Positions 1 through 37,846 of a stretch of 40,835 bases of DNA are shown here, one piece after another. Source of the DNA: Akkermansia muciniphila. Its GTDB lineage: Bacteria; Verrucomicrobiota; Verrucomicrobiia; Limisphaerales; UBA9464. The translations under genes and the position numbers were made by a program. The notes under the pieces are model-generated. The model was not told where the DNA came from. It made no database searches and saw only the letters and a list, made by a program, of their open reading frames with translations. Position 1 is the stretch's first letter. Each line of letters starts with the position of its first letter. The stretch covers positions 1 to 40,835 of the forward strand of contig CAMDGV010000038.1 of NCBI GenBank assembly GCA_945898055.1, in the 5' to 3' direction.

Positions 1-1
1 T

Positions 2-511
2 TACCTTGTCCAACAACACCACTACCTTGGGTTCAGCCGCCCGGTGGGCGAACACCTCAAGTATCTGGTTCTTGCCGGGGAACGGCCCGTCGCCTGCATG
101 GCCTGGAACAGCGGACCCCTGAAGCTCAAGCTGCGCGATAAGTTCGTGGAAGCTCCCCGAATCGCCTATGCCCACAACCTTCATCTCATTGCCTATAACA
201 GCCGCTATCTGATCGTTCCCTGGGTTCGTATTCCTCACCTGGCCAGCCACCTTCTGGGACGGATCGCCCGCCGGATCAGCGCCGACTGGCAGGAGCTTTA
301 TCACCATCCGATCCATCTGCTTGAAAGTTTCGTGGATACCGAACGGTTCAAGGGAACCTGCTATCAGGCGGCGAACTGGCAGTGTCTCGGACGCTCTCTT
401 GGCCTGGGAACCAAGTCCAAAGCGGGCGACCGGACCTCCATCAAGGAACTCTGGGCCTATCCCTTGGGCAAAGACTTCCGTCAAAAGCTGACCCAATGTT
501 CGACGAGGTAA
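2..511 (+). CDS. DUF4338 (DruA-family) protein, 5' end cut by window edge
   Basis: The frame is open from base 2, so the GTG at 44 is not a credible start and the true N-terminus lies outside. Visible family features are HHYLG near the left edge, then RPVGEHLKYLV, HNLHLIAYNSRYLIVPWV, LASHLLGRIARRI and FKGTCYQAANW. These are the conserved core of DUF4338, the family to which the Druantia phage-defence protein DruA belongs. Its biochemical activity is not inferable here. Many family members sit in transposons rather than defence islands, and this one does too: its TAA stop (509-511) overlaps the ATG of the downstream transposase (496) by 16 bases, which implies translational coupling. A defence role is not supported, since no helicase gene such as druE is nearby. 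The most likely role is as an accessory protein of the transposon. Confidence 0.75.
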   Translation, partial: YLVQQHHYLGFSRPVGEHLKYLVLAGERPVACMAWNSGPLKLKLRDKFVEAPRIAYAHNLHLIAYNSRYLIVPWVRIPHLASHLLGRIARRISADWQELYHHPIHLLESFVDTERFKGTCYQAANWQCLGRSLGLGTKSKAGDRTSIKELWAYPLGKDFRQKLTQCSTR

Positions 512-2067
512 AAGAGTGGCTGGGGCGGGCGGAGGAGCGAAAGGTTTTCCTGGGGGAAATCGGTCGGCGCCTGTCCCCCGAACATGCGGCGCGGATCACC
601 CGGTTGCTGGAGTTTCTGGACTGGCTGTTGTCCGTGCTGGAAAAGAAGAGGCTCTCCATCCGCAAACTGCTTGAACTTTGTTTCGGTTCCAAAACGGAAA
701 GCGCCCGCAATGTGTGCGGCAAAGCGCCGAAGACCAAACAACGGCAGAAGCGCAAGGGCCATGGACGCAACGGGCACCTCATCTACACCGGAGCCAGGCG
801 GGTGAAGGTGCCGAACCCGGTGCACAAAGACGGCGAGACCTGTCCCGGGTGCGGAAAAGGCAGACTTCGGCCGATGAAAAAGCCGGCTGTGGCTGTGAGC
901 GTGACCGCGCAGCCGCCTGTGGGGGCGGTGGTTCACGAAATGGAACAACTCCGATGCGACACGTGTGACAAGGTGTTCACGGCACCGACACCACCGGAAG
1001 CGGGGGTGGAAAAGTATGACGCCAGTGTTGGAGTGATGGTGGGGTTGTTGCGCTATGGGAGCGGAATGCCGTTCCACCGGCTGGAGCGATTGCAGAAAAG
1101 CCTCGGGGTGCCACTGCCCGCCTCGATTCAATGGGAACAAGTTCAACGGATCTTACAAAGCCTGGAGCCCATTCACAAACAAGCGGTGAAGCAGGCGGCA
1201 CAATCCTTGGTGGTGCACAGCGATGACACCAAGGCGCGGGTGACTGCGTTGTTCAAGGAGATCCGGAGCCAGGAGAAGCCCAAGAGGACGGGGATATTCA
1301 CGACGGGCATCGTGGGCAAAGTGGACGGACATACAGTGTGCCTGTTCTATACCGGACGCAAACACGCCGGGGAGAACCTGGCCGAACTGCTGGAACAAAG
1401 GGATGAAAATCTCTCGGCCCCCCTGCACATGTGCGACGGTCTGTCGCGCAACGAACCCAAGGGACACGAGACGGTGGAATGCCAGTGCAACGTTCATGGG
1501 CGGAGAAACTTTGTGGAATTGGAAAAGGACCATCCCGAGGAAAGCCGGAAGGTGGTGGAAAGTTATTCGGAAGTTTATCGGGTGGAGGCGGAGGTGAGGA
1601 AGAAGGGATTGAACGACGAAGAAAGGCTTCGAGTTCATCAGGAACAGAGCGGACCGGTGATGGAGGAACTGAGGCGGTGGTTTGCTGAATTGATGGACGG
1701 GAAAAAAGTGGAACCGAACTCCAACCTGGGAGGGGCCATCCGATACATGCAGAACCGGTGGACGGAACTGACGCAGTTCTTGAGAGTGCCCGGGGCACCG
1801 ATCGACAACAACGAAGTCGAGAGGGAGCTCAAGACGTCGATCCTGCACCGGAAGAACAGCCTGTTCTACATGACGGAGCGGGGAGCACATGCCGGGGATG
1901 TGTTTATGAGCATCATAGAGACCTGTCGCAGGAACGGGGCAAATCCGTTCGACTACCTGATGGCAGTGGTGAGGAATGAGTCGCGGATGGAAGCTGACCC
2001 CGGAGCCTGGATGCCCTGGAACTACCTGAAAACAGAGGCTGGGCTGAACACCCAGGGCGTCAGATGA
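496..2067 (+). CDS. tnpC: IS66 family transposase (TnpC)
   Basis: DDE transposase that would cut and move the element. The open frame runs back to 382, but the ATG at 496 gives a normal IS66 N-terminus (MFDEVKEWLG) of 523 residues and overlaps the upstream stop. Order of parts: an N-terminal helical segment with LFGSKTE-like CFGSKTESA; a basic linker; a zinc-finger region with CPGCGKG and CDTCDKVF; then the catalytic domain. The first Asp is in VHSDDTKAR, the second in MCDGLSRN, next to the family motif CNVHGRRNF, and the Glu is in IDNNEVERELK. A C-terminal segment ending in WMPWNYLK matches the IS66 C-terminal region. No stop or frameshift is seen. The partner gene is unusual: DUF4338 takes the place normally held by tnpA and tnpB. 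Confidence 0.93.
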   Translation: MFDEVKEWLGRAEERKVFLGEIGRRLSPEHAARITRLLEFLDWLLSVLEKKRLSIRKLLELCFGSKTESARNVCGKAPKTKQRQKRKGHGRNGHLIYTGARRVKVPNPVHKDGETCPGCGKGRLRPMKKPAVAVSVTAQPPVGAVVHEMEQLRCDTCDKVFTAPTPPEAGVEKYDASVGVMVGLLRYGSGMPFHRLERLQKSLGVPLPASIQWEQVQRILQSLEPIHKQAVKQAAQSLVVHSDDTKARVTALFKEIRSQEKPKRTGIFTTGIVGKVDGHTVCLFYTGRKHAGENLAELLEQRDENLSAPLHMCDGLSRNEPKGHETVECQCNVHGRRNFVELEKDHPEESRKVVESYSEVYRVEAEVRKKGLNDEERLRVHQEQSGPVMEELRRWFAELMDGKKVEPNSNLGGAIRYMQNRWTELTQFLRVPGAPIDNNEVERELKTSILHRKNSLFYMTERGAHAGDVFMSIIETCRRNGANPFDYLMAVVRNESRMEADPGAWMPWNYLKTEAGLNTQGVR

Positions 2068-2071
2068 ATCG

Positions 2072-2107
2072 GGGCGGGAGCCCGGAGGAACCCCGGGATT
2101 CCCGCCC
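2072..2107 (+). terminator. GC-rich stem-loop just after tnpC
   Basis: An outer stem GGGCGGGA (2072-2079) pairs with TCCCGCCC (2100-2107), and an inner stem CCCGG (2081-2085) pairs with CCGGG. It begins four bases after the tnpC stop. No T-run follows, so it is not a textbook intrinsic terminator. It may protect the mRNA 3' end, block read-through, or be a subterminal structure of the element. Confidence 0.45.
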
Positions 2108-2458
2108 AAGCCCACCTCCCTGGCGGGGCGACTGAGGAAAACAACCCCCCGGAAGAATCCACCGGCCCATGAGAGAGCCGAGCCTGACGGGGAAGAACAA
2201 CCCTGATCCTGGCAGAACCGGGAACAAGCCATAGCGTCAAGCCGGGGTTTGAATCCCAACCTTCCCTCGCTGAACGCAGTTCACGCCAAAACGGCCGTCA
2301 AAAACCTTCCCTACGGCCTGTTCCGCACCCGTGCCGAAAGGACACAGTCCATTGATTTTTTTCGTTTACCGAACACGCACTCGAAATTCGACCCCAGCAC
2401 CACAATGAACGACAACCGATCCACACCGGTGACATGGCTCGTTCGTGGGCTTGCCTAG
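2108..2458. other. Gene-free stretch downstream of IS66 element
   Basis: No convincing gene. Short frames here lack recognisable domains. The right end of the transposon must lie in or near this stretch, but I found no inverted-repeat partner because the left end is outside the window. Confidence 0.5.
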
Positions 2459-2668: not shown

Positions 2669-4576
2669 TCACTTCATCCATTTAGCATACCACATTTGGA
2701 ACATTAATAAATTCCACAACTCTTGACTGTACTCTTTTTTGCCACCAAAAAAATTAGTTTTTAATCTCTCAACAAATTCCCATCGAAAAACCCCTTGGTC
2801 TTTTATAATTTTTTCTTGCAAATGTTCCTCAACCAATTCTCTTAAACCATTCTGCAGCCAATTAGCTATTGGTACTGCAAAACCCATTTTTGGGCGGTTC
2901 ATCATTTGTCTTGGAACATATTGGTGTACTATCTCTTTTAGGATGTATTTTTTTTCATGATTATAGTATTTGAAACTATCAGGTAAAGTCGCTGCCCATT
3001 CTATCACACGATGATCTAAAAATGGCTCGCGACCCTCTAAACTAGCGGTCATCGTTGACCGGTCTACTTTTTGTAAAATATCATCTACCAGATAGGTTTC
3101 GTAATCAACAGCCATCATGTAAGCTAAAGGCGTATAGTATTCATTTTTTAATTCTGTTGAAAGATAGTTTGTCTCTAATCTGTCAAGGGATGTCTTTAAA
3201 AGCACATTGCTTAGTTGTTCGTCTGTATATTGTTGGCTTAAACTCAACATGAATTTTTGGCGGGAAGGATTTCTTAGAATATACTTCAACTTTGCATAGC
3301 GGTTATGAAAATTTGGCTTGTTTTTTAGAATTGGAATTTTTTTAGAAGGAATTTGCTCCATTATTTCGGTAATTAATTTGAGAATAAATGTTGGTATTGC
3401 TTCCAATTTTTTTCCGTAGCGCATCAAATAATTATACCGATTATATCCTGCAAAAACTTCATCACCTGCATCAGCACTTAAAGCAACAGTAACGTGTTTT
3501 CGTGCCATAATACTGACTAAAGTTGTTGGAATGGCGCTGGAATCGGCGAAGGGTTCATCGTAATAGTAAGGAAGATTTACAATTAAATTGAAGGCATCTT
3601 TTTCTGTGCATTCAATTTCTGTATGATCTGTTCCTAGATGTCTTGCAACTTCCTTTGCGTACGGAGCCTCATTTAGTCCAATATCCGGAACGGCAATTGT
3701 AAAAGTTTTTAATTTATTAATGCGGCTTTTCTGAAGTAAAGCAGTAACGCATGCACTGTCATATCCACCACTTAGAAAAACTCCGATCGGAACATCAGCA
3801 ACCATTCTGTATTCGCAAGCCGACGTTAATATCTTTTCAGTCTGAATTTTTGCATCATCAAATGAAAGTGATATTTTAGGTTGATTATAAGCATCGTAGA
3901 CATTCCAATACTGTTTTTTATTGAGGCTTTGATCTTTTAATGAAAAAGTCATCCAGTGACCAGGCTCTAGTTTAAAACAGTTTTCAAAAATACAGTGAGG
4001 CGATGGTACATTTCCATATTGCATAAATGCACCAACGGCCTGAAGATTTATCTTTTTTATAAAACCAGGATGTTCATGAAATGCTTTAAGTTCAGAAGCA
4101 AAAAGAAATAAACCATCTTTGAAATAATAAAACAGTGGTTTTATTCCAGCTCTATCTCGTGCGAAAAACACCTTATTCGTAACAGTGTCATGTATTACAA
4201 AAGCAAACATCCCAATAAATTTTTGAAGACAATCTTGTCCCCAATGAGCATAAGCATGCAAAATCATCTCGGTGTCTGATCCACCTGTAAAATGATGTCC
4301 AAGAATTAAAAGTTGCGCTTTTATTTCTTGGTAATTGTAAATTTCACCATTGAAACAAATTGTAAGATTTTCAAATTGCATGGGTTGTTTTCCATGCTCT
4401 GATAAATCGATGATTGAGAGTCTTCGATGTCCGAGCCCAATCTGAAGATTTTTTTCATTGAGCAACAAAGTACCACCATCATCTGGGCCTCGATGAATCA
4501 GAGTGTTCGACATTCTTTCAAGAATTAATCCTGAAGAAGACTTAGTGAAATCAAAAAATCCTGTAATACCACACAT
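2669..4576 (-). CDS. asnB: Asparagine synthetase (glutamine-hydrolysing), AT-rich, probably imported
   Basis: Makes asparagine, or amidates another carboxylate, from glutamine and ATP in the cytoplasm. The 635 residues are full length for AsnB. The N-terminal glutaminase domain starts MCGITGF with the nucleophile Cys2, then GHRRLSIIDLS, NGEIYNYQE and GGSDTEMILH. The C-terminal synthetase domain has the PP-loop FLSGGYDSACV, LSADAGDEVFAGYNRY, and the late motif LEGREPFLDHRVIEWAA. The PP-loop has Tyr where most relatives have Leu, Ile or Val. Base composition is the outstanding feature: the gene is far richer in A and T than anything else in the window, with many AAA/TTT codons, which points to recent transfer from a low-GC donor. 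Relatives are common in surface polysaccharide clusters, where they modify sugars, but no glycan genes flank it. A second AsnB is encoded at 21482. Confidence 0.93.
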   Translation of the reverse strand: MCGITGFFDFTKSSSGLILERMSNTLIHRGPDDGGTLLLNEKNLQIGLGHRRLSIIDLSEHGKQPMQFENLTICFNGEIYNYQEIKAQLLILGHHFTGGSDTEMILHAYAHWGQDCLQKFIGMFAFVIHDTVTNKVFFARDRAGIKPLFYYFKDGLFLFASELKAFHEHPGFIKKINLQAVGAFMQYGNVPSPHCIFENCFKLEPGHWMTFSLKDQSLNKKQYWNVYDAYNQPKISLSFDDAKIQTEKILTSACEYRMVADVPIGVFLSGGYDSACVTALLQKSRINKLKTFTIAVPDIGLNEAPYAKEVARHLGTDHTEIECTEKDAFNLIVNLPYYYDEPFADSSAIPTTLVSIMARKHVTVALSADAGDEVFAGYNRYNYLMRYGKKLEAIPTFILKLITEIMEQIPSKKIPILKNKPNFHNRYAKLKYILRNPSRQKFMLSLSQQYTDEQLSNVLLKTSLDRLETNYLSTELKNEYYTPLAYMMAVDYETYLVDDILQKVDRSTMTASLEGREPFLDHRVIEWAATLPDSFKYYNHEKKYILKEIVHQYVPRQMMNRPKMGFAVPIANWLQNGLRELVEEHLQEKIIKDQGVFRWEFVERLKTNFFGGKKEYSQELWNLLMFQMWYAKWMK

Positions 4577-5010: not shown

Positions 5011-5440
5011 GTAAGCGTGCGCCCAACCCTATGGTTTTTGATATTCTACCCAGATGCTGAGTTTTCTCTCCAACGCTCGGGTCTATCTCGCGGCCGGTCA
5101 GACCGATCTTCGCAAGTCCTTCGATCCACTGGCCGGGGTGGTGCGCAGTTCACCGCAATTGGATCCTCTTTCGGGTCACCTTTTTGTCCTCAGCCATCAG
5201 CGTTGTCATCGGGTCAAAACTCTTTTCTGGGATAAGTCGGGCTGATGGCTTTGCGCTCAGCGCCTAGAAGCAGGCACTCTGGCCTGGCCTGACTCAGCAG
5301 TGCGAGTGATCGAGCTCTCAAATGAACAACGGACGCTGCTCCTGAGTGGAATCGATTTGGGTCAAACGCGGGTACGTCCCTGGCTCAATCATCTCGGCAA
5401 AGAAGACTCGGAATCCCGCCTTAGACCGGCCTCTTTTTAA
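5011..5440 (+). mobile_element. Decayed IS66 element, left end and tnpB only
   Basis: GTAAGCG at 5011-5017 matches the characteristic terminal sequence of IS66 family inverted repeats. About 40 bases further on a tnpB-like frame begins. No tnpC and no matching right end (CGCTTAC) is visible before 5866, so the element has lost its transposase. It is a different IS66 lineage from the one at the left edge, which has no tnpB in view. Confidence 0.6.
5054..5440 (+). pseudogene. tnpB: IS66 tnpB pseudogene
   Basis: The first part (5054-5242) has the standard TnpB signature: VYLAAGQTDLRKSFDPLAG, DPLSGHLFV and RVKTLFWDKSG. A TGA at 5243-5245 interrupts the frame. The same frame continues with QRLEAGTLAWP and LLLSGIDLG, which are the C-terminal TnpB motifs. 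The segment between (expected to resemble GFALWYKRLEAGT) is scrambled, with DGFAL legible in another frame, so a small indel as well as the stop is likely. IS66 TnpB is a small protein needed for transposition. Without tnpC this copy can only be a relic. Confidence 0.8.
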
Positions 5441-21481: not shown

Positions 21482-23437
21482 ATGTGTGGGATCACTGGTT
21501 TTATTGGAGACAGTAGACTTTCTCGAGAGGACGCGCGGATCGTTCTTCAACGGATGACAGATGCCATTCGGCATCGAGGTCCAGATGCGGATGGTTTTTG
21601 GCAAAGCAACGACGGGCAGGTGAACTTGGGCCATCGGCGCCTGAGTATTATTGATCTTTCGGCCGCAGGATCGCAGCCAATGAGCACCGCTGACGGTCGC
21701 TTTACGCTCATTTTTAACGGAGAAATTTACAATTTTCAGGAACTGCGCGCTCAACTGGAAGGTTTGGGATGTCGGTTTCGGGGTTCTTCGGACACCGAGG
21801 TGCTTTTGCTTGGTATCCAAGAGTGGGGCGTCAGGGCCCTGTTGCCTCGGCTCAACGGCATGTTCACTTTTGCCGTCTGGGACAAACGGGAGCTGACGTT
21901 GACGCTCGCACGTGATCGATTTGGAGAGAAACCACTTTATTATGCGTGTGATCGAGGGTTGTTGATCTTTGGCTCGGAATTAAAAGCTCTGTTCCCGCAT
22001 CCGTCCTTTTGTCGGGAGATTGATCCATCGGGGTTGACGCAACTTCTGACCTTCAGCTACATCGGCACGCCTCTGTCGATTTTTAAAGAGGTAAAGAAAC
22101 TGAACGCGGGATGTTTTTTGGAAACAAAGCTGGGTGCAGGGCCTAGGGCACAGGAGGCTTATTGGGATCCTCAACAGATGCTCGCCAAACGGGGTAGCCT
22201 AGACCCTAAGCTCAGTACCGGTGAGATCCTTGATAGACTCGATCAGAAACTCCGTCTGGCGGTGAAGCGAAGGATGGTATCGGACGTGCCGCTCGGAGCC
22301 TTCTTGTCGGGCGGGATCGACTCGTCCTTGGTTGTCTCACTGATGCAGGCCCAGAGTTCTCGATCAGTGAAGACTTTCACCATCGGTTTTCGGGAAGGCG
22401 GGTTTAATGAAGCACCCTTTGCCGCCGATGTCGCACGACATCTTCAGACCGAGCATCATGAGTTATTTCTTGGGACCCGAGAGTGCGTTGAAACGATCCA
22501 GCGCTTGCCGGAAATCTACGACGAACCCTTTGCTGACTCATCTCAAATACCCACTACACTCGTCTCTGAATTCGCCCGCCGCCACGTCACTGTCGCTTTG
22601 TCCGGAGATTCAGGTGACGAGTTTTTCGGTGGTTACAACCGCTATTTATGGGGAGGACGCTTGTGGCGGTCGCTTCAATTGATTCCGAGCTGTTTTAAAC
22701 TATTGGGGCGCGATCTCATCAATTCTGTAAGCGCTCGGACTTGGGAGCAGATCCTCGGGGCCGGCAATAAACTGATGCCGAGGCGTTATCGAGTGCAGGC
22801 CTCAGGTGACAAAATGCACAAATTAGCCAGAATTTTGGATGCAAGTTCAATCGGTAATCTCTACGAACAGTTGGTTTCAACTTCACAACTGACTGGGACC
22901 GTTACCCTTCGTCCAAGTAGCGCGCCGCCCCCTTTCGCCCACTGGTCTAGCAGGGGGAACCTGCTGGGAGATATCGAGGGGATGATGTTCATCGATCAGA
23001 TGACGTATATGACGGACGATATTCTCTGCAAAGTAGATCGGGCAAGTATGTCTGTGGGACTGGAGTCTCGGGTCCCGTTTCTGGACAATGATCTGACTGA
23101 GTTCGCTTGGTCGTTACCGATGGATTTTAAGATTCATGGAGGCGTTGGAAAGTGGCCCCTAAGGCAGATCCTAAAGCGTTATGTACCGGAAGCACTCTTT
23201 GAGCGACCCAAGATGGGTTTCGGCATTCCGGTTGGTGATTGGCTACGCGGACCACTTCGAGATTGGGCTGAAGATCTGTTGAGTGAGTTCAATTTAGCGG
23301 ATGGTGGATGGCTTAACGTCGCGGTCGTAAGAAAAGTCTGGATGAACCATTTGGAAGGGAAAAAAAACAGGGTCGATCAACTCTGGCCGATACTAATGTT
23401 TCTGTCGTGGAAACGTAAATGGATTGATCGCCGCTAA
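21482..23437 (+). CDS. asnB: Asparagine synthetase (glutamine-hydrolysing), native-type copy
   Basis: Same reaction as the protein encoded at 2669-4576 but from a gene whose composition matches its surroundings. The glutaminase domain starts MCGITGF with Cys2 as nucleophile, then IRHRGPDADGFW, GHRRLSIIDLSAAGSQPM, NGEIYNFQELR and GSSDTEVLLL. The synthetase domain has the PP-loop FLSGGIDSSLV, YDEPFADSSQIPTTLVS, LSGDSGDEFFGGYNRY, and LESRVPFLDNDLTEFAW. The 651 residues are full length. The start is fixed by the need for Cys2: the ATG at 21482, with no Shine-Dalgarno sequence before it. Such two-domain enzymes also work in surface polysaccharide amidation, but with no glycan genes around the general metabolic role is as likely. 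tmk follows 140 bases later. Confidence 0.94.
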   Translation: MCGITGFIGDSRLSREDARIVLQRMTDAIRHRGPDADGFWQSNDGQVNLGHRRLSIIDLSAAGSQPMSTADGRFTLIFNGEIYNFQELRAQLEGLGCRFRGSSDTEVLLLGIQEWGVRALLPRLNGMFTFAVWDKRELTLTLARDRFGEKPLYYACDRGLLIFGSELKALFPHPSFCREIDPSGLTQLLTFSYIGTPLSIFKEVKKLNAGCFLETKLGAGPRAQEAYWDPQQMLAKRGSLDPKLSTGEILDRLDQKLRLAVKRRMVSDVPLGAFLSGGIDSSLVVSLMQAQSSRSVKTFTIGFREGGFNEAPFAADVARHLQTEHHELFLGTRECVETIQRLPEIYDEPFADSSQIPTTLVSEFARRHVTVALSGDSGDEFFGGYNRYLWGGRLWRSLQLIPSCFKLLGRDLINSVSARTWEQILGAGNKLMPRRYRVQASGDKMHKLARILDASSIGNLYEQLVSTSQLTGTVTLRPSSAPPPFAHWSSRGNLLGDIEGMMFIDQMTYMTDDILCKVDRASMSVGLESRVPFLDNDLTEFAWSLPMDFKIHGGVGKWPLRQILKRYVPEALFERPKMGFGIPVGDWLRGPLRDWAEDLLSEFNLADGGWLNVAVVRKVWMNHLEGKKNRVDQLWPILMFLSWKRKWIDRR

Positions 23438-36638: not shown

Positions 36639-36715
36639 GAGAGTCTGTTACCGGCGATCGGTGGATGGAATCAACTGAACGAAATGGATGGCGTGGACTC
36701 CAAGGGTTAACGTTT

Positions 36716-37846
36716 ATGAAAGCAAACCAGAATAGAAAACTGCAGAGGGCTTCAACGCGTGGGTCGACTCAGGGCAGGGTTGGGCGAAACCGAAAAGTTG
36801 CCGTTTGCGGATCTCAAACCCCTAAACTCGTTGGCACTTTTGCTTCTCACGCCACCGCAATCAGGGTGTTTCCAGTTAAGAAATCAAATAAGCTAACTGA
36901 ATTGACTCTTTCTGCCGAGACGCTGCCTGCCTCGCGGGCAGTTTCGGTTCGGATTGAACAACCTCTTCTGCCTAAATCGATGCGGGTGCCGGAGCCTCCC
37001 ATTCGGGGAATTTGGGATGAACATTCCTCGCTACGACTTTATCTGAGGGATGCGATCGAGACCCCCTTATTGACGGCCCAACAGGAGATTGAGTTAGCGC
37101 ACCGGATTCGGAGCGGCGATGAGGCAGCGCGGGAGCATATGATTCGAGCTAATCTCCGCTTGGTGATCAAAATTGCACGCGAATACGAGGACTACGGGTT
37201 GCCGCTCTTAGATCTTATCAATGAGGGGAACATCGGCCTGATGAGATCGGTAGAGCGGTTTGATCCCAACCGAGGCGCCAAGTTGTCGACCTATGCGGCC
37301 TGGTGGATCAAGCAAGCCATTAAGAGAGCCTTATCCAATCAGTCCAAATCCATCCGTTTACCGATTCATATTGTGCAGGAACTGGCTCGGATGCGGAAGG
37401 CTGAGCACCGATTAGAATCCGAATTGGGGCGTCCGGCTTTGGATGTGGAGTTAGCTGCTGAATTGGAAGCGCAGGTCGAGGATATCGTACGATGGCGCGA
37501 GGCCGGCGCCATCGGTTCGACCTCGTTAGATGCACCGATGGGATCTGACCCTGACTCGAACCGAATTGCTGACGTTATTGCCGATGAGGCGGCGGTGATG
37601 CCTTGGGCGGGTGTGAGTGACGAGAGCAACGCTGAGCTCGTGCGGGAATTAGTCAGCACCTTAAATGAGCGTGAGCAGATTATTTTAAATCAACGTTTTG
37701 CTTTAGAAGGTGGAGAACCAAGGACCTTGGAGGAGATCGGGATTGATTTTGGGTTGACCCGTGAACGGATTCGTCAAGTGGAAGCTGCCGCACTCAAAAA
37801 ATTGAGAGAGCGTTATCTGACCCGTGAGGCCATGGCTGAGTCTTAA
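36716..37846 (+). CDS. RNA polymerase sigma-70 family factor (RpoD/RpoS-like)
   Basis: Directs RNA polymerase to a promoter set. Regions in order: 1.2 (SSLRLYLRDAIETPLLTAQQ), 2 (ANLRLVIKIAREYEDYGLPL, DLINEGNIGLMRSVERFDP, FDPNRGAKLSTYAAWWIKQA), 3 (IRLPIHIVQELARMRKAEHR) and 4 (LNEREQIILNQRF, LEEIGIDFGLTRERIRQVEA). Region 1.1 and the long non-conserved region of primary sigma factors are missing. In their place is about 90 residues of basic low-complexity sequence (NRKLQRASTRG, GRVGRNRKVAVCG). This fits a group 2 factor. The ATG at 36716 follows AAGGGTT; the ATG at 36665 is also in frame. The long hairpin-rich leader suggests post-transcriptional control. Confidence 0.9.
   Translation: MKANQNRKLQRASTRGSTQGRVGRNRKVAVCGSQTPKLVGTFASHATAIRVFPVKKSNKLTELTLSAETLPASRAVSVRIEQPLLPKSMRVPEPPIRGIWDEHSSLRLYLRDAIETPLLTAQQEIELAHRIRSGDEAAREHMIRANLRLVIKIAREYEDYGLPLLDLINEGNIGLMRSVERFDPNRGAKLSTYAAWWIKQAIKRALSNQSKSIRLPIHIVQELARMRKAEHRLESELGRPALDVELAAELEAQVEDIVRWREAGAIGSTSLDAPMGSDPDSNRIADVIADEAAVMPWAGVSDESNAELVRELVSTLNEREQIILNQRFALEGGEPRTLEEIGIDFGLTRERIRQVEAAALKKLRERYLTREAMAES

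Follow-up and report, generated by a model that had tools for sequence, protein, structure and literature searches.

A predicted Mom-like member of the DruA family as the fourth gene of IS66-type insertion sequences

What do the closest described systems tell us about a DruA-family gene that runs directly into an IS66-type transposase gene? The two genes, druA (DUF4338) and tnpC, lie at the left edge of a 40,835-nucleotide stretch of bacterial DNA (the window; contig C38 of genome G000), which, judged from its sequence, appears to hold the right part of an IS66-family element that carries an accessory gene resembling Mom. IS66 insertion sequences (ISs) consist of tnpA, tnpB and tnpC, the last encoding a DDE transposase, and their terminal inverted repeats (TIRs) usually start with GTAA; an ISBst12-like branch of the family has tnpC only. 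The druA elements share with them the DDE TnpC, TnpB (PF05717), TIRs and 8-bp target duplications, but carry a fourth gene between tnpB and tnpC, coupled to tnpC, and the TIRs of their main group start with GTGTCC or GTGAGC, not GTAA. Phage Mu Mom (8bv8, phrog_1384) is, according to parts of the account in PMC7824862, a GNAT-superfamily enzyme that places an acyl-type group onto N6 of adenine, whereby phage DNA is protected; its PDB entry names it a methylcarbamoylase. Transposon DruA resembles it in a predicted GNAT-like fold and in an H-Y, S, D, Y-x-A-x-N, G residue pattern, but has an extra N-terminal helical domain and resides in IS elements, coupled or fused to a transposase. Druantia DruA (PF14236, PADLOC DruA1) belongs to the same Pfam family as transposon DruA, yet its partner is DruE (L175, L176), whereas that of transposon DruA is a transposase. 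DUF4338 likewise occurs fused to some DndF proteins, where sections of PMC10853773 term it a GNAT domain and place it in phosphorothioate restriction, a context unlike that of transposon DruA; neither 'Mom' nor 'IS66' occurs in the main text of that paper.

The druA frame of the window yields a product of 169 aa (P0001), the N-terminal part of which is missing, as judged from its PF14236 match, which covers only profile positions 69-222 of 297. Since base 1 is the contig start and lies inside druA, nothing stands to the left of this fragment. The TnpC that follows matches PF03050 (DDE_Tnp_IS66) with an expectation value (E) of 1.2e-50 and the NCBIfam IS66 model NF033517 with E 1.4e-70. A first-pass annotation of the sequence had described the overlap of the DUF4338 frame with tnpC correctly (16 bases, from 2-511 and an ATG at 496; Table 1), but had drawn the end of the element at 2110, which is too short. 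The right TIR was recognized by its match to the inverted repeat of relatives; because their motif recurs at 2324-2345 and its 14-mer core, GTGTCCTTTCGGCA, has a single occurrence in the 40,835 bases, even allowing two mismatches, the window element most likely terminates at 2345.

Table 1. Features of the druA-tnpC locus, with window coordinates
Feature	Position	Strand	Evidence and remarks
druA/DUF4338 gene	2-511	+	PF14236 (Pfam "DruA") E 1.2e-21, phrog_1384, alignment; 5' end beyond contig edge
Predicted Mom-like GNAT domain in druA, without N-terminal helical domain	2-511	+	
His-Tyr codons	20-25	+	aligned with Mom H48-Y49
Ser codon (PHLAS)	245-247	+	aligned with the Mom serine of the inactive crystal form S124A (= S114, AF083977)
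Asp codon (SFVD)	335-337	+	aligned with Mom D139
Y-x-A-A-N motif	362-376	+	aligned with Mom Y149-x-A151-x-N153
druA 3' end / tnpC start overlap, 16 bases	496-511	+	
tnpC, IS66-family DDE transposase, 523 aa, ATG start at 496	496-2067	+	PF03050 and NF033517
Right TIR, element end	2324-2345	-	inward GTGTCCTTTCGGCACGGGTGCG; right flank AGTCCATT

The association that the first-pass annotation had read from this one locus is recurrent. In 59 related genomes, the window's included and taken as an unselected sample, an IS66 match lies within 2 kb downstream on the same strand for 9 of 48 DruA match rows, against a roughly estimated chance expectation of about 0.015; among the nine are the window pair and a second full-length pair of the window genome (C51, druA of 292 aa, its end overlapped by the tnpC frame). 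The pairing is not due to chance. A scan of named genomes gave at least 566 relatives, of which the best 80 were kept; as its query aligned eight DruA, seven linked to IS66 and one to ISKra4, the finding of tnpC directly downstream of druA in 74 of these 80 selected loci is no frequency. Three of the remaining six stop at a contig edge (L089, L116, L118), and three (L117, L125, L142) have downstream room without a tnpC, the downstream open reading frames (ORFs) tested there belonging to metabolic families or having no match. Phage records gave no match to the DruA of locus L069 at E 0.01, and plasmid matches to DruA came from two records only, both of Candidatus Thiodictyon (E 1e-5).

Across the 80 loci and three more from viral contigs (with L150, which is in fragments, left out of the count), the gene order is tnpA-tnpB-druA-tnpC in 59 of 83, with tnpA and tnpB identified by profiles that derive from five of these loci. 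The other orders are tnpB-druA-tnpC (3), druA-tnpC (15, several of which begin too near the contig start to reveal tnpA or tnpB), druA alone (5) and tnpB-druA (1). TnpB was verified as PF05717 in L069 and L126; two tnpA frames that were tested had no Pfam match, and their name rests on position. The four-gene class includes L068, which is the window's sister in both the DruA and the TnpC tree, L069-L072, and L195/L042 from a related genome. On C13 of the window genome, a relic likewise retains a druA remnant, which shares 94% identity with window 3-155, with tnpA-like and tnpB frames ahead of it. The first-pass annotation had let DUF4338 take the place of tnpA and tnpB, a substitution that is ruled out by the gene order of the relatives: by this measure, druA is a fourth gene of the IS66 element and not a replacement, and the full window element, judged by its closest relatives, would have read TIR-tnpA-tnpB-druA-tnpC-TIR. 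On C132 of the same genome, a left end is preserved that comprises a TIR, tnpA and the beginning of tnpB. It was considered as the half that the window element lacks on its left; the C132 flank, CAGAGGTC, is no repeat of the window flank, AGTCCATT, and the assignment is not claimed.

Debris of related elements was seen as well. Many partial or stop-bearing IS66, tnpB and DUF4338 matches are scattered over C13, C7, C105 and other contigs of the window genome, probably as remnants of past bursts of such elements. Outside the window element, a separate, degraded IS66 tnpB fragment lies at 5054-5245 (+; PF05717, 5e-15) and continues to about 5374, with 39% identity to L069 TnpB over 5063-5374 and one stop. 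In L053 (G026 contig 350), a single open frame at 3-584 (+) is matched by the TnpB as well as by the DruA profile and is possibly an in-frame joining of tnpB and druA by deletion.

Where do these elements end? Of 74 loci, 30 have inverted repeats that score above 30 shuffles, two or three of which could pass by chance; L084, whose score is an artefact of its N runs, would make this 31 of 75. In 27 of the 30 they represent one motif, GTGTCCyTTCGGCAAGCsTGCrTGA or variants of it, found in several phyla; a GTAA start is seen in L151 and L077 but not in the window type. Perfect 8-bp target duplications flank five of the 25 repeat-bearing loci that have both flanks, namely L069 (GCTTCATC), L072 (TGTTGAGC), L126 (CACCGACC), L147 (CGATGTAC) and L151 (TTAAATCA); in three the duplication adjoins the boundary exactly as called, in two it appeared once the boundary was set to where GTGTCC or GTAACT begins, and the other 20 loci showed no perfect duplication. 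Four of the five are four-gene elements, and L151 is a druA-tnpC element with GTAACT ends. In the duplication-flanked relatives the element ends enclose druA, which bears out the earlier placement of DUF4338 inside the element; repeats that exclude it were not seen there. Two near-copies on one viral contig, L148 and L149, are 99.8% identical from the left TIR onward and have different left flanks (L148 was left out of the end and residue analyses), and a second copy in the genome of L126 (G059), 91% identical, matches from inside tnpB to the right TIR. L148 and L149 lie in inverted orientation near both ends of their 42.7-kb contig (IMGVR_UViG_3300048503_000080), possibly as a composite element or through an assembly effect.

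The druA gene is translationally coupled to tnpC and is under purifying selection. Of 67 relatives, 60 have a tnpC start codon between -40 and +20 relative to the druA end; the junctions are 4-base overlaps in 39 and overlaps of any length in 44, the start codon nearest the druA stop having been taken, from which true starts may differ. The ratio of nonsynonymous to synonymous substitution rates (dN/dS) is 0.07-0.28 for DruA across 15 pairs picked by hand, dS being saturated in some, and a similar 0.10-0.34 for TnpC.

What kind of protein is DruA? A PDB sequence search with the DruA profile gave no match up to E 10, so that a fold comparison was needed. An AlphaFold2 model was computed for L069 from 57 rows, with L069 first and the window protein among them; it has a mean predicted local distance difference test score (pLDDT) of 89.7 and a predicted template modeling score (pTM) of 0.77, and comprises a three-helix N-terminal domain, which, as a guess from its topology, probably binds DNA, and a GNAT-like domain. 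The top Foldseek match among 350,542 PDB chains is phage Mu Mom in its inactive S124A mutant form (8bv8_B, E 6.2e-7), with a template modeling (TM) score of 0.43 for query length and 0.59 for target length. VIA-align likewise ranks Mom 8bv8 first (Z 14.8 over 162 residues at 2.9 A, the next match having 13.7), and a Mom appears at rank 8 of the BFVD fold matches. At the level of profiles, phrog_1384, a Mom-like DNA modification protein, matches the DruA of L044 (6e-5), of the window (5e-4) and, only at 0.041, of C51, and hhalign joins DruA to eight Mom proteins with E 1.7e-5 and probability 78.5 over 162 columns, or, with 81 DruA, to Mom with E 5.3e-6 and probability 85.9 over 48 columns.

Several residues of Mom, reportedly treated in the work of Karambelkar of 2020, recur in the DruA alignment. 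The serine that is mutated in the Mom crystal (S124A) corresponds to S114 in AF083977 numbering and aligns with the PHLAS serine of DruA. In 88 IS66-labelled rows, the window included, the residues at the Mom positions are kept as follows: H48 in 88, Y49 in 86, S114 in 86 (one T), D139 in 85 (two E), Y149 in 88, A151 in 88, N153 in 87, and G in 88. Six of these rows have no visible tnpC (L089, L116, L117, L118, L125 and L142, three of them at contig ends), and L100 and L114 were left out of the count for their low scores. The six ISAs1 fusions considered retain H, S, D, Y, A and G, and five of them the first Y.

The fusions belong to a wider association with transposases. Within the 59 genomes, 24 of the 26 DruA matches with E below 1e-15 have a transposase partner: ten are paired with IS66 (including a frame in G011 that is cut by the contig edge and was identified by sequence comparison), seven are N-terminal fusions to ISAs1-type transposases (L046 being assigned through its similarity to L197), three are fused to IS4/Tn5-type transposases (L048-L050, assigned by Pfam DDE_Tnp_1 and its associated domain), and four stand beside ISKra4-like frames, all of which score 88-199 bits, below the NCBIfam cut-off of 205. 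The other two are L047, a long DruA for which no transposase was found, and L196, the following frame of which looks transposase-like but was not counted, its DDE_Tnp_1 match being weak (E 0.011). Quick, unrooted trees of thinned sets, both with long-branch warnings (57 DruA and 49 TnpC rows), place the IS66-linked DruA in two groups, the smaller one mixed with ISKra4-linked rows with a support of 99 in the SH-like approximate likelihood ratio test (SH-aLRT), and distribute the TnpC with DruA over at least three TnpC backgrounds. Twelve of 13 TnpC labelled as being without DruA fall into a classical clade, and L067 (Thiodictyon) falls inside the DruA clade; one row labelled as being without DruA (L180) has no sequence upstream of tnpC, which makes its label uncertain, and one labelled as having it (L188) retains only 73 aa of DruA, at the edge of its contig. 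A DUF4338 gene of the Tn5-fusion group was also noted on plasmid pTs485 of Candidatus Thiodictyon syntrophicum (L066, 5992-10764), where genes annotated as an integrase and an IS91 transposase lie between it and a Tn5-type transposase, and DUF2235 genes flank both sides.

The Druantia proteins stand apart from all of these. Together with long DruA they are split from every transposon row at 100 SH-aLRT (three Druantia and four long rows, with long branches meeting at this point), so that the separateness of the paired DUF4338 clade, which the first-pass annotation had raised, is upheld within the limits of that long-branch warning. That the transposon role came first and defense later, as the first-pass annotation had suggested, is one possible order in these unrooted trees. 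The three Druantia rows have none of the Mom H, S, D, A and N, with Y149 in two and G in all, and the four long rows have no H, A or N, but their second column holds Y and three of them have S; at such distances, the alignment is uncertain for both. L175-L177 match the PADLOC DruA model, and L175 and L176 adjoin a PADLOC DruE, whereas the three transposon DruA tested against PADLOC's own models (P0001, L069 and C51) have no match. Nor is there a PADLOC match to Druantia or DruE in the ten window ORFs scanned (of 39 of at least 150 aa) or in P0001 and P0002, the contig's left side being missing; the first-pass statement that no druE is in view agrees with this. An orphan Druantia system was rejected on these grounds, with no DruE match in the ORFs scanned, a separate tree group and no PADLOC match. 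The long DruA-family proteins L171, L172, L173 and L174 (about 660-1050 aa), some of which neighbor genes for FtsK-like proteins or large helicases, form a group next to the short Druantia DruA, and L173 matches PADLOC's second, longer DruA model.

How might DruA act in a transposon? With a probability of roughly one half, transposon DruA is a Mom-like DNA-modifying partner of DDE transposases. Such a protein would join an N-terminal helical domain, probably DNA-binding, to a Mom-like GNAT domain and would, during transposition, modify DNA on or beside the element, at adenine if it acts as Mom does. Co-translated DruA would meet the transposase, with which it shares one polypeptide in the ISAs1 and IS4/Tn5 relatives; given this closeness, whether by co-translation or by fusion, its natural substrate would be DNA of the element or of the target within the transposition complex. 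The mark might protect element DNA or an intermediate against restriction, in the way that phage Mu is protected by Mom, or it might license or limit the use of the ends, and within the Mom-like reading the two are about equally likely. The computation shows the order of the genes, the element ends with their duplications, the coupling and the purifying selection, as well as a Mom-like predicted fold and residue pattern among the relatives; catalysis by DruA, its substrate, its DNA target and its role as shield or in end-use control are inferred. Tentatively, and at a lower confidence, we extend this to a Mom-like enzyme that is recurrent in transposition machinery, that four or more DDE transposase families may have recruited, whether as coupled gene or as fused domain, and that would write a base mark at element or target DNA, with Druantia DruA as a diverged cousin that would have lost the catalytic residues.

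Several observations weigh against a Mom-like enzyme. IS66 elements without druA are common, and a literature search, as far as its sources could be consulted, found no reported activity for a DUF4338 protein. The structural model is that of L069 and not of the truncated window protein, both hhalign probabilities are below 95, and ordinary protein and small-molecule GNATs follow only about one Z unit below Mom in VIA-align, while the N-terminal domain (modeled with pLDDT 86.6) has no significant PDB fold match, its best E being 0.69. Mom R101 has no clear partner in the DruA alignment. Outside the IS66-linked rows, four of the six ISAs1 fusions have Gly for the Asn at N153, both ISKra4-linked rows and two of the three IS4/Tn5 fusions have Glu for the Asp at D139, and all three IS4/Tn5 fusions have Pro for the Tyr at Y49.

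These deviations at Y49, N153 and, in part, D139 would fit a non-enzymatic architectural or targeting factor, in which a GNAT-like scaffold and the helical domain bind the ends or target DNA and TnpC, as would the translational coupling, the N-terminal fusion to DDE transposases and the three-helix N-terminal domain; yet H, Y, S, D, Y and N are near-invariant in the 88 rows from many phyla, which is more than a scaffold requires, and we regard this explanation as rather unlikely. Improbable by comparison is a protein acetyltransferase that acts on the transposase or a host protein in autoregulation: protein acetyltransferases are among the many PDB matches to this GNAT fold, but the DNA-modifying Mom leads both fold comparisons, the sole PHROG match, for L044 as for the window, is to a Mom-like protein, and the conserved residues follow the pattern of Mom. 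That DruA is a passenger or guard gene, a defense module related to Druantia and carried by the transposon, is suggested by the Pfam family name and by the Druantia and long DruA in the same family; it has little probability given the separate tree group, the missing PADLOC match for the three transposon DruA, the absence of DruE from the window ORFs scanned, and the position of druA within the transposition operon and in fusions to transposases. A chance neighborhood or an assembly artefact, for which the contig edge that cuts the window copy might speak, is contradicted by the recurrence of the pair, both among the selected loci (74 of 80) and among the unselected rows (9 of 48), and is already refuted by the duplications that enclose druA, leaving it a negligible probability.

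Beyond the element, the window contains two genes for asparagine synthase, at 2669-4576 (-) and 21482-23437 (+), the former of which adjoins the element and appears by eye richer in A+T than its surroundings. A frame at 36665-37846 (+) matches PADLOC MzaA (3e-44), limited to the C-terminal third of the model, and no defense system is evident there.

How much of this was known? The naming of DUF4338 as a GNAT domain in DndF fusions precedes our analysis (PMC10853773, in the sections drawn on here), and the IS66 variant with a Mom-like accessory gene appears to be new. No paper joining DUF4338 with IS66 was found in a search with subscription papers and ISfinder outside its scope, and among the matches listed for DruA together with a transposase, a transposon, IS66 or ISAs1, none describes this pairing, judged by title and beginning of abstract. 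For the annotation of such genomes, matches to the Pfam "Druantia protein DruA" can be mostly transposon proteins; because 24 of the 26 strongest matches sit with a transposase, a lone Pfam DruA match should not count as defense. The prevailing view holds that insertion sequences consist of ends and a transposase. If the Mom-like reading is true, the DUF4338/DruA family would gain a testable chemistry, and DNA modification would be part of how many IS elements, from four transposase families, move or protect themselves.

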